Part shown: positions 14,604 to 52,913 of the stretch, piece after piece
How positions within the stretch are numbered: the first letter of the stretch is position 1
How the letters are laid out: each line of letters begins with the position of its first letter
The notes under the pieces: generated by a model
The model's input: the letters and a program-made list of their open reading frames with translations, nothing else
What the model was told of the DNA's origin: nothing
The model's database searches: none
NCBI GenBank assembly: GCA_902583455.1
Contig: CACHVY010000001.1
Coordinates: forward strand, 186,001-250,000
Source of the DNA: an uncultured Pelagibacteraceae bacterium
GTDB lineage: Bacteria > Pseudomonadota > Alphaproteobacteria > Pelagibacterales > Pelagibacteraceae
DNA: 64,000 nt
Direction: 5' to 3'
Translations under genes and position numbers: made by a program

Positions 14604-15203
14604 ATGCATTCTCAAAAACTGCATATTTTGAATATACCAGAATTAGATAAAATTATTATAGAAATCAAAGATTATTTCAATTTCGAGGTTTTCTACTTCA
14701 ATGAAAAAAAGGATTTAATAAAAAAAATTGACGAAGATAAAAAATTTATAGCAAACTCAATAATTCTTGTTAATCAGATAGACTTTTCTTCTTTTAAAAG
14801 CAAAACATATAAAAAACAAATTCATTGTATTACAAAATTTCCAATAAAAATTTTGAATTTAATGGATCAAATAAACGCAAGATTAATACAACAAAATTAC
14901 TCCGCCCAATCAAATATCAATATAAATAAATATATATTAGATATTAATTCAAGGATATTAAGAAAATCTGATAATGCGCTTAAATTAACTGAACGAGAAA
15001 TTGATACTATTATATTTCTCAAAAATGAAAATAAACCAGTTAAGGTTGATGTTCTACAAAAAAAAGTATGGAAATATGGAGAGGACTTAGAAACTCATAC
15101 AGTTGAGACACATATTTATAGACTAAGAAAAAAAATTAAAAACACATTTGATGACGATTCATTTATACAAAGTAAAAAAAATGGGTACATAATTAGTGAG
15201 TAA
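14604..15203 (+). CDS. Winged-helix (OmpR-type) transcriptional regulator with degenerate receiver
   Basis: The C-terminal 70 residues form an OmpR/PhoB DNA-binding domain: LTEREIDTIIFLKN, VLQKKVWKYG, then THTVETHIYRLRKKI and the wing KNGYIISE. The N-terminal 120 residues have the size of a receiver domain, but I see no conserved acidic pocket plus phospho-acceptor Asp and Lys pattern, so control by phosphorylation is doubtful. The target may be the divergent L,D-transpeptidase gene 11 bp away (inference). The 3' end overlaps an ArfA-like mini-gene. Confidence 0.8.
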   Translation: MHSQKLHILNIPELDKIIIEIKDYFNFEVFYFNEKKDLIKKIDEDKKFIANSIILVNQIDFSSFKSKTYKKQIHCITKFPIKILNLMDQINARLIQQNYSAQSNININKYILDINSRILRKSDNALKLTEREIDTIIFLKNENKPVKVDVLQKKVWKYGEDLETHTVETHIYRLRKKIKNTFDDDSFIQSKKNGYIISE

Positions 15204-15303
15204 GAAAAATCTTTTAAAAAAAGAGCTATTTACAAAAAAATATAAACCTAGAATAATAAAACCTAAAAAAGGAAAAGGTAGCTTTAAAAGAAAAAAAAAA
15301 TAA
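15196..15303 (+). CDS. ArfA-like alternative ribosome-rescue mini-protein (35 aa)
   Basis: GTG-started 35-residue frame overlapping the previous gene by 8 bp. The sequence has LLKKELF, then KPRIIKPKKGKGSFKRK. The KKGKGSF/Y-x-RK block preceded by an LLxxxLF segment is the hallmark of ArfA, which enters the empty mRNA channel of stalled ribosomes and recruits release factor 2. E. coli ArfA has LLHDPLF and KKGKGSYMRK in the same order. It is shorter than E. coli ArfA (72 aa) but keeps the functional core. The coding end runs into an A-rich tract 1 bp from the convergent msrB stop. Confidence 0.65.
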   Translation: MSKKNLLKKELFTKKYKPRIIKPKKGKGSFKRKKK

Positions 15304-15304
15304 A

Positions 15305-15781
15305 TTAATTGCTACTTGTTGGTTTAAATATTAGGCAAAGACCATTATTACAAAATCTTTTTCCAGTTTCGCTTGGTCCATCTGCAAAAACGTGTCCATG
15401 ATGAACCCCACAATTTGCACAATGATATTCAATTCTTTTCATTCCAAATGAGTAATCAATTTTAGTTTTAAATGCACCTGGCAGAGCCTCTGTAAAAGAT
15501 GGCCAACCAGTTCCACTATCAAACTTAGCAGTTGATGCAAATAATTTTGCCCCACAGTTTGCACAATGATAGAAACCTTCTCTTTTTTCATTCAATAGAT
15601 CACTTGTAAAAGGCCTTTCTGTGCCTTCATTAAACATTATTTCCTTTTGCTTTTTGGTGAGATTCTCGTTTATAACTTTTTTTGTAACTGCTTTTGCATA
15701 TTTAGATGGCAATAAGAAAAAAGAAAAAAATGTGATACTAAATAATTTTATAAAAGTTCTTTTATCTAAATTATATTTCAT
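15305..15781 (-). CDS. msrB: Peptide-methionine (R)-S-oxide reductase MsrB, probably exported
   Basis: Repairs methionine-R-sulfoxide in proteins. Two CxxC zinc pairs (CANCGAKLF and CANCGVHHGHVF), SGTGWPSF and the catalytic Cys in RFCNNGL near the C-terminus are all present. About 31 N-terminal residues form a signal peptide (KLFSITFFSFFLLPSKYAKA), suggesting a periplasmic repair enzyme. It follows a DUF4149 membrane protein gene with a 1-bp overlap. Confidence 0.93.
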   Translation of the reverse strand: MKYNLDKRTFIKLFSITFFSFFLLPSKYAKAVTKKVINENLTKKQKEIMFNEGTERPFTSDLLNEKREGFYHCANCGAKLFASTAKFDSGTGWPSFTEALPGAFKTKIDYSFGMKRIEYHCANCGVHHGHVFADGPSETGKRFCNNGLCLIFKPTSSN

Positions 15782-52675: not shown

Positions 52676-52867
52676 ATGAAAAGAATGCACAGAGTTCTTA
52701 ATTCGTTTAGCCGAGGCTCAAAGATCGCTAGGCTAAATCAATTAATGTTCCGAAATTTAAAATCTGTTGAAGCTAATGGCAATGGCACAAGTGGATACGT
52801 TATTAAATCTGGAAAAAACTCTGGAAAAGTTGTTGGGCATTTAAAAAAAGAGCCTAAAAACATTTAA
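52676..52867 (+). CDS. Small basic protein (63 aa), unknown
   Basis: ATG 52676 is preceded by AAGGAG (52665-52670), a strong Shine-Dalgarno, so I choose it over the in-frame upstream start at 52670. The protein begins MKRMHRVLNSFSRGSKIARL and has about a quarter Lys/Arg and a Gly/Asn/Ser-rich middle (ANGNGTSGYVIKSGKNSG). It looks like a nucleic-acid or ribosome-associated protein, but no family is recognised. It stands alone between pnp and the convergent fabI, with a structured leader. Confidence 0.75.
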   Translation: MKRMHRVLNSFSRGSKIARLNQLMFRNLKSVEANGNGTSGYVIKSGKNSGKVVGHLKKEPKNI

Positions 52868-52882
52868 TTAAGATTGGGGTAT

Positions 52883-52907
52883 GGGGCACCTGGCAACAGA
52901 ACGCCCC
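52883..52907. repeat. Hairpin repeat, copy C
   Basis: GGGGC (52883-52887) pairs with GCCCC (52903-52907) around ACCTGGCAACAGAAC. Inside the loop CTG-GCAA-CAG can form a GNRA-capped mini-stem. Compared with copy A the stem differs by a paired A-T to G-C change. It lies 6 bp from the fabI stop. Confidence 0.7.
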
Positions 52908-52913
52908 TTACAT

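Follow-up and report, generated by a model that had tools for sequence, protein, structure and literature searches.

Does a 35-codon open reading frame in an uncultured Pelagibacteraceae bacterium encode a ribosome-rescue factor? A published account confines ArfA to some of the beta- and gammaproteobacteria (PMC8012679), and a 2024 survey of 15,259 genomes records arfA in none of 2,376 Alphaproteobacteria (PMC11633108). We analyzed a 64,000-nucleotide stretch of the genome (the window), in which the original prediction had placed an ArfA-like gene that overlaps a regulator gene and ends in an A-rich stretch 1 bp from the stop of a convergent msrB gene. Reading of the open frames bore out the 35-codon frame, both junctions and the A-rich 3′ end. 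The features of the locus are as follows.

14604..15203, + strand: OmpR-type winged-helix regulator gene (PF00486), 199 codons, by domain match; the usual upstream neighbor
15196..15303, + strand: arfA-like gene, GTG start, 35 codons, TAA stop (15301-15303); PF03889 match of 26.5 bits, conserved family
15196..15203, + strand: overlap of the arfA start with the regulator stop, 8 bp, GTGAGTAA
15208..15258, + strand: N-terminal half, Asn5 to Ile21, in gapless alignment with E. coli ArfA Asn14-Glu30
15259..15300, + strand: C-terminal basic half, Lys22 to Lys35, with KPKKGKGSFKRK, aligned with E. coli Lys31-Lys44
15291..15300, + strand: run of ten A at the 3′ end of the arfA-like gene, read from the sequence
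15305..15781, - strand: msrB (SelR domain, methionine sulfoxide reductase) by domain match; convergent neighbor, its stop at 15305

The predicted product has 35 residues, VSKKNLLKKELFTKKYKPRIIKPKKGKGSFKRKKK, about half of the approximately 70 aa that ArfA has in most organisms (PMC5378476), as had been stated.

Similarity of the short peptide to ArfA

The Pfam model of ArfA, PF03889, matched the window peptide with an E-value of 4.3e-6 over profile positions 12-42 of 44, and the score of 26.5 bits exceeded the curated cut-off of 25.5. This was the sole Pfam family matched, and the RF-1-type domain (PF00472) was absent. An NCBIfam search with the window peptide returned no match, and the model of DUF7230 (PF23876; curated cut-off 27 bits) did not match it at E-values up to 1.

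From 20 same-genus peptides, read from DNA and then aligned, we built a SAR11 profile, which matched six distinct ArfA chains in the PDB (E 4.9e-6 to 1.5e-5), all from E. coli according to the structure papers. The alignment with E. coli ArfA was gapless over 33 residues, E. coli 12-44 in the numbering of chain 5h5u. The profile scored E. coli ArfA 29.4 bits, while the best of 300 column-shuffled profiles reached 10.3 bits; as none of the 300 approached the true score, the similarity is not the purely random likeness of a Lys/Gly-rich peptide that had been considered at the outset. The SAR11 peptide corresponds to about E. coli residues 10-44, with extra lysines at its end: E. coli residues 1-9 have no counterpart in the window peptide, which stops at the position of Lys44. 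The KKGKGS[FY]xR tail sits at the same distance from the A-site segment in both proteins.

The ArfA core had originally been recognized by two elements, one of which held. The KPKKGKGSFKRK stretch is present and the PF03889 threshold is passed, whereas LLxxxLF was misread: Leu11-Phe12 of the window peptide fall on E. coli Leu20-His21, which rules out equating its LL...LF with the LLxDPLF motif of E. coli. Tyr16 aligns with Phe25, and E. coli Ala18, Leu19 and Leu24 align with Lys9, Glu10 and Lys15, respectively, so that of the Ala18/Leu19/Leu24/Phe25 patch the aromatic position alone is kept.

A PF03889 search of 386 alphaproteobacterial genomes gave 10 matches. Three were from SAR11, six were ArfA-like peptides in scattered other families (L151 and L154-L158), and one, in a 220-aa frame, was rejected as not ArfA. 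The L154 peptide lies at the end of a 588-aa open frame and that of L151 reads KKGKRAY; two of the six assemblies carry 7-10% contamination. We compared the N-terminal half of the SAR11 peptide with these sequences and with E. coli ArfA. By itself, this half showed no detectable similarity to the E. coli protein, 163 of 300 shuffles being as good (111 of 200 in a repeat), nor was it like L151 (60 of 200). L155, an alphaproteobacterial peptide over the Pfam cut-off, scored 11.8 bits (0 of 200 shuffles as good), L154 and L158 3.9 bits (1 of 200 each), L157 2.7 bits (5 of 200) and L156 2.0 bits (2 of 200). The phage protein gp30, described below, scored 22.6 bits (0 of 200). Judging from these comparisons, the chain of resemblance runs from SAR11 through other alphaproteobacteria and phages to E. 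coli ArfA, the link to E. coli being made by the KKGKGS[FY]xR motif at the right spacing together with alphaproteobacterial and phage members that resemble both. Since L155 also passes the Pfam cut-off without Leu19 and Leu24, the patch does not define ArfA as Pfam draws the family.

Distribution and conservation in SAR11

We searched the source genome and 40 relatives with PF03889, i.e. 25 genomes of the genus (the source genome included) and 16 sister-family genomes of the order. In the genus, 20 of 25 genomes carried a short frame with the motif, in agreement with the predicted family assignment of the peptide; 12 of these exceeded the Pfam cut-off and eight scored below it (17.2 to 25.0 bits). 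The five genomes with no match (G002, G014, G015, G017 and G019) are all incomplete assemblies (55-72%). Weak matches in five sister-family genomes were located inside 366-371-aa frames, and we put them down to chance.

A scan of named GTDB genomes found at least 374 stretches encoding a relative, of which we took 80, all labeled Pelagibacteraceae, Pelagibacterales or Candidatus Pelagibacter; this assigns the window to SAR11. The order was sampled by 298 genomes of 80% completeness or more, taken from a larger group; 231 of them matched at E 0.001 or better, including 114 of the 150 high-quality ones. The seven poorest matches, in G074 and in six genomes of the sister family (E 7.5e-5 to 5.6e-4), are look-alikes lacking KKGKGS, to which we give the provisional label DUF7230-like; the remaining 224 scored E 2.1e-10 or better, most of them being known by score alone. 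The G074 look-alike matched DUF7230 with 19.9 bits, below the cut-off of 27, and two sister-family forms had no Pfam match. Synteny fails as proof that these look-alikes are the same gene, as four of their loci have other neighbors.

For an analysis of selection, we assembled 108 SAR11 loci (20 found by Pfam, 80 from the GTDB scan and eight further loci of the order) with 105 distinct sequences, a few of them probably representing one genome met twice. Predicted products were 34-45 aa long (median 36); hence the shortness noted in the original prediction is real but not peculiar to this genome. Start codons, predicted by rule, were ATG in 88, TTG in 12 and GTG in eight loci. Asn5, Leu11, Lys24, Lys25, Gly26, Gly28 and Arg32 were invariant in all 108 and position 16 was Tyr in 104 and Phe in four, although these invariances are biased because the loci were partly chosen by motif. 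The dN/dS ratio over 43 disjoint close pairs was 0.114, pointing to purifying selection. Widening the pair limit slightly (47 pairs) gave a pN/pS of 0.158 for all codons and of 0.284 for codons outside both search patterns; the 20 loci that the Pfam model had found gave 0.188, from six pairs only.

The regulator gene adjoined arfA in 93 of the 108 loci; six more lay at contig edges and nine had another or no detected neighbor. The two genes overlapped in 82 of the 93 adjoining loci, most often by 4 or 20 nt. The convergent 3′ neighbor was a kinase gene that we name PfkB-type from its sequence in 81 loci and msrB in nine, with neither found within the distance limits in 18. The order of a YkuD-type gene (recognized by eye), the regulator and arfA recurs in two other genera (L121 and L127). 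The neighbors differ in one sister genus (L125 and L126, from G041 and G044), where the arfA-like gene would have been either relocated or gained separately; at L125 they are a 494-aa frame, photolyase-like by eye, and a 465-aa frame, transporter-like by eye.

Among high-quality genomes of the genus, 20 that gave no match were searched for the convergent kinase gene, which 17 have and three do not. At all 17 readable loci the regulator gene directly meets the kinase gene, the two overlapping or lying at most about 35 bp apart, and the 700 bases before the kinase gene held no profile-like remnant (best 6.9 bits, E 0.05). At its usual site arfA is either cleanly present or cleanly absent. As it is missing from a sizeable minority of genomes, including single-contig ones, the gene is dispensable.

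These data bear on whether the frame is a gene at all. A chance Lys/Gly-rich open frame in AT-rich DNA overlapping a regulator gene would also be short and lysine-rich, and the missing NCBIfam match fits such a reading. However, a dN/dS of about 0.11, with constraint persisting outside the search patterns, the near-constant length and overlap in about 100 loci, the clean absence at 17 of 17 loci and the existence of homologs in phages all speak against it, and we regard a chance frame as scarcely credible, ruled out by conservation, selection and the shuffle control. Absence of conservation among relatives would have pointed the other way; what we found was a frame conserved under purifying selection among SAR11 relatives. 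On this comparative evidence, we consider the frame 15196-15303 to be a real gene and a member of the ArfA family.

Other rescue systems and RF2 in SAR11

The original prediction had singled out the coexistence of a minimal rescue factor with tmRNA, and the source genome does encode tmRNA beside the arfA-like gene. An alpha-type tmRNA (226.8 bits; tag ANNKFALAA by ARAGORN) lies on a contig other than that of the window, and SmpB is present. Overall, tmRNA exceeded the cut-off in 33 of 41 genomes, and SmpB was found in 38 of 41, the source genome included. The window itself has a weak match to the alpha_tmRNA model at 52836-52910 (+ strand; 28.5 bits, below the cut-off of 50), which is probably due to chance since similar weak matches occur in other genomes.

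No ArfB was seen among the RF-1-domain (PF00472) proteins of 70 genomes, i.e. the 41 genomes and a further 30, with G012 in both sets; we take the PF00472 model to pick up ArfB as well. This reading follows from the size of the frames, 310-378 aa as expected of RF1 and RF2, except for fragments in G007 and for G032, where one RF-1-domain open frame of 5,795 is outside the RF1/RF2 size range. A 151-aa frame of G007 was considered as ArfB and rejected: a contig end divides a prfB gene there, and both fragments belong to it.

The source assembly is 81% complete, and the one release-factor gene seen in it is by sequence prfA, not prfB. RF2 of a complete genome of the same genus, G012, could be aligned with the E. 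coli protein (3.5e-106); it retains SPF, Phe217 and Trp319 and has Ile in place of Val198.

Proposed function of the SAR11 peptide

In E. coli, the ArfA tail (residues 31-48) fills the empty mRNA tunnel and the N-terminal part lies in the A site, where Leu19, Leu24 and Phe25 of an N-terminal minidomain hold RF2 at Trp319, Val198 and Phe217 (PMC5378476). The A18T variant is inactive, with release blocked, and truncation at Asn47 is tolerated while shorter forms are inactive (PMC5378476, section 5). The end of the SAR11 peptide is three residues short of this reported minimum.

Our preferred reading, to which we assign a probability of roughly 0.8, is that the frame is a genuine gene for a naturally minimal ArfA that would serve as an RF2-recruiting backup rescue factor. 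In outline, a ribosome that reaches the end of an mRNA without a stop codon would stall with its A site empty. The basic C-terminal half of the peptide, KPKKGKGSFKRKKK, would enter the mRNA tunnel left empty, with the N-terminal half positioning RF2 to hydrolyze the peptidyl-tRNA without a stop codon. In this way the minimal ArfA would serve as a backup to the alpha-type tmRNA-SmpB system that the cell also has. Ribosome binding, RF2 dependence and constitutive or coupled expression of SAR11 ArfA are what we infer by comparison with E. coli. Both working parts are present in outline, but the E. coli patch is mostly replaced and the end is short, and the RF2 interface is therefore most likely somewhat different.

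The same features would suit a peptide derived from ArfA whose KKGKGS tail still binds the ribosome or RNA but which has lost RF2 recruitment; it might, for instance, be a small factor that binds the ribosome or plugs the mRNA tunnel. Conservation is highest in the tail, the RF2-facing Leu19 and Leu24 are replaced along with Ala18, the N-terminal half on its own is unlike E. coli ArfA, and the peptide ends before the shortest active E. coli truncation. Yet the N-terminal half is itself conserved, Asn5, Leu11 and Tyr/Phe16 each occurring in 108 of 108 loci; it matches several alphaproteobacterial and phage ArfA-like peptides, though not L151; and the RF2 contact residues are kept in the aligned SAR11 RF2, apart from the Ile for Val198. 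We therefore consider loss of RF2 recruitment improbable and retain an RF2-recruiting ArfA as the more plausible function.

Regulation of the SAR11 arfA gene

E. coli ArfA is normally translated from a non-stop mRNA that results from cleavage at a 3′ hairpin, and a hydrophobic tail makes the full-length protein unstable (PMC3989581, PMC8012679). A scan for terminator-like sites in the window region found none, and neither an RNase III hairpin nor unusual 3′ folding stood out from shuffled sequences in the window (z -0.79 and +1.02); on these grounds we reject a hairpin or terminator like that of E. coli at this locus. Over seven stretches from six loci, z-scores ranged from -1.81 to +1.02, within or near those of shuffles; L037 (-1.54) and L052 (-1.81) had mildly more stable 3′ folds, but the structures differ. 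The arms GGUAGC...GCUACU, which flank the stop of the window's gene, base-pair in the window and, in part, in L021, but the overall fold is within the range of shuffles. Slippage on the poly-A run was also considered as a regulator and rejected, because the run is not kept in all relatives read; ordinary AT-richness is its simplest reading.

With the stop codon right after the core, no hydrophobic tail and no hairpin seen, control by tmRNA has probably been lost. The E. coli switch, by which ArfA is made only upon failure of trans-translation, thus seems to be missing from the SAR11 gene. GTGAGTAA, the 8 bp in which the regulator stop and the arfA start coincide, is a likely translational-coupling junction and, the overlap being conserved, coupling to the regulator gene would be the likeliest substitute control. 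The level of ArfA would then probably be set by transcription and by translational coupling with the overlapping upstream gene.

Relatives in phages and the DUF7230 family

A scan of viral contigs (IMG/VR) found at least 147 stretches encoding relatives, of which 80 were taken (L160-L239). The motif preceded by a basic-aromatic stretch was present in 74 of the 80, and of the other six at least L208 and L219 hold KPKKGKGS[FY]. The viral genes vary widely: some are near-copies of the SAR11 peptide (L160-L162 share 73% identity with that of the window), and others have long extensions at the N or C terminus, with an MPGKWDGRSR... front in several. Two viral contigs were checked and both are phage, L168 with a clamp loader and a DNA polymerase processivity factor and L161 with an endolysin. 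One viral ArfA-like gene adjoins the clamp-loader genes of a T4-like phage.

Among named phages, a tblastn search with a SAR11 consensus gave no match, probably owing to the low-complexity filter, and one with a phage protein as the query gave 10 records. Gp30 of pelagiphage HTVC027P has been called ArfA on the basis of PF03889 and is highly expressed 3 h and 12-15 h after infection (PMC12753301). In our analysis, gp30 (QGZ17811.1) has the ArfA core and scored 20.2 bits, below the Pfam cut-off, and gp63 of HTVC034P (QPZ53497.1) passed it with 25.7 bits. PHROGs returned only weak matches, to families of unknown function. Three further viral or phage genes are listed by position.

L150:15768-15944, - strand: ArfA-like viral gene, listed with the IMG/VR copies
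L268:401-505: unannotated ArfA peptide of Roseobacter phage CRP-212, encoded within an annotated gene but in a different frame
L269:401-484: unannotated ArfA peptide of Caulobacter phage Cr30

HTVC027P is a phage of Ca. Pelagibacter HTCC1062, to which our genome G046 may correspond by its size. G046 is a single contig of 1,308,759 bp and has no arfA at the usual regulator-kinase junction (L250), while HTVC027P brings an ArfA, a possible case of phage supplementation of a lost host factor.

The SAR11 gene may itself have come from phages: marine phages would keep their own translation going with the factor, and an ancestral Pelagibacteraceae would have captured one copy, or the transfer ran in reverse. 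The number of viral relatives, the expression of gp30 during infection (PMC12753301) and the closeness of L160-L162 to the window peptide would fit such an origin. But the SAR11 gene occupies one conserved chromosomal site in several genera, so that any capture must be ancient, and 35 residues are too few for a reliable tree; we thus treat a phage derivation as rather unlikely, if conceivable. It concerns origin alone and is compatible with the rescue function, for which a minimal ArfA remains our preferred reading.

DUF7230 was related to these sequences by profile comparison, with a probability of 96 against the ArfA-like set and of 95 against the SAR11 set; the sets compared were small, with 8 and 5 rows, and the SAR11 profile had itself supplied three of the five that are DUF7230-like. 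For the other two, L266 and that of phage ZZ1, the DUF7230 scores were 41.4 and 49.1 bits. Both Pfam models also pick up the peptides of Cr30 and CRP-212, the DUF7230 match being weak (0.0084 and 0.09). With its own model, DUF7230 was found in 2 of 191 alphaproteobacteria, and the literature searched yielded no mention of it. The DUF7230 or DUF7230-like proteins at L266, L272:386-511, L129 and L130-L135 have the N-terminal half of the alphaproteobacterial ArfA-like peptides and lack KKGKGS. From these profiles, DUF7230 may be a sister family of rescue factors. We tentatively suggest, at rather less than even odds, that ArfA, DUF7230 and the small phage NP[VI]AK...[KR][YF][KR] proteins form one mini rescue-factor superfamily, sharing a half that would seat the release factor and differing in the basic tail that would probe the mRNA tunnel. 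Pelagibacteraceae would keep a tail-less version free of tmRNA control, and Pelagibacter lineages without the gene would be infected by phages bringing their own.

Discussion

The SAR11 peptide shares with E. coli ArfA (YhdL, PF03889) the KKGKGS[YF]xRK motif within a gapless alignment over residues 12-44 and, in the role that we propose, service as a backup beside tmRNA-SmpB. E. coli arfA is reportedly convergent with mscL, and the SAR11 locus likewise has a convergent 3′ neighbor gene. E. coli encodes 72 aa (PMC3989581), in contrast to 35 aa here. In the SAR11 gene the core is followed at once by the stop codon, neither a hydrophobic tail nor a hairpin was found, Ala18, Leu19 and Leu24 are replaced, and the host is an alphaproteobacterium. 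In the characterized ArfAs, the tail and the 3′ hairpin are traits of regulation, not of activity.

The phage proteins HTVC027P gp30 and HTVC034P gp63 have the same core, ending in KKG[KR]GSFKR, but they are phage-borne, and gp30, at 58 aa, is extended at its N terminus by about 21 residues. DUF7230 (function unknown) has the NP[VI]AKxLRxxxYK half of the alphaproteobacterial ArfA-like peptides, whereas it lacks the KKGKGS loop and its tail resembles DRTKYSRKxRHK. BrfA of Bacillus and ArfT of Francisella are small release-factor-dependent rescue proteins (PMC8012679); small size and a rescue role, the latter proposed for SAR11, are the points of likeness, and neither name occurred among the Pfam and PDB matches. 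ArfB (YaeJ/ICT1) would share the backup rescue of non-stop ribosomes with SAR11 ArfA, but it is itself a hydrolase of the release-factor family, a domain that the SAR11 peptide does not have.

The literature searched, which was not exhaustive, contains in the excerpts available a report of ArfA for a pelagiphage, not for the host (PMC12753301). The 2024 survey used nucleotide profiles with nhmmer (PMC11633108), and our guess is that such profiles would overlook an AT-rich gene of 105 nucleotides or that SAR11 was sparsely represented among the genomes surveyed. By sequence comparison, SAR11 ArfA would be a variant of a known factor that is new in length, control and host range.

If it acts as proposed, the SAR11 case shows how much of ArfA evolution may discard, namely all but about 35 residues, the feedback from tmRNA included, and it makes a testable point on phages that carry the same factor.
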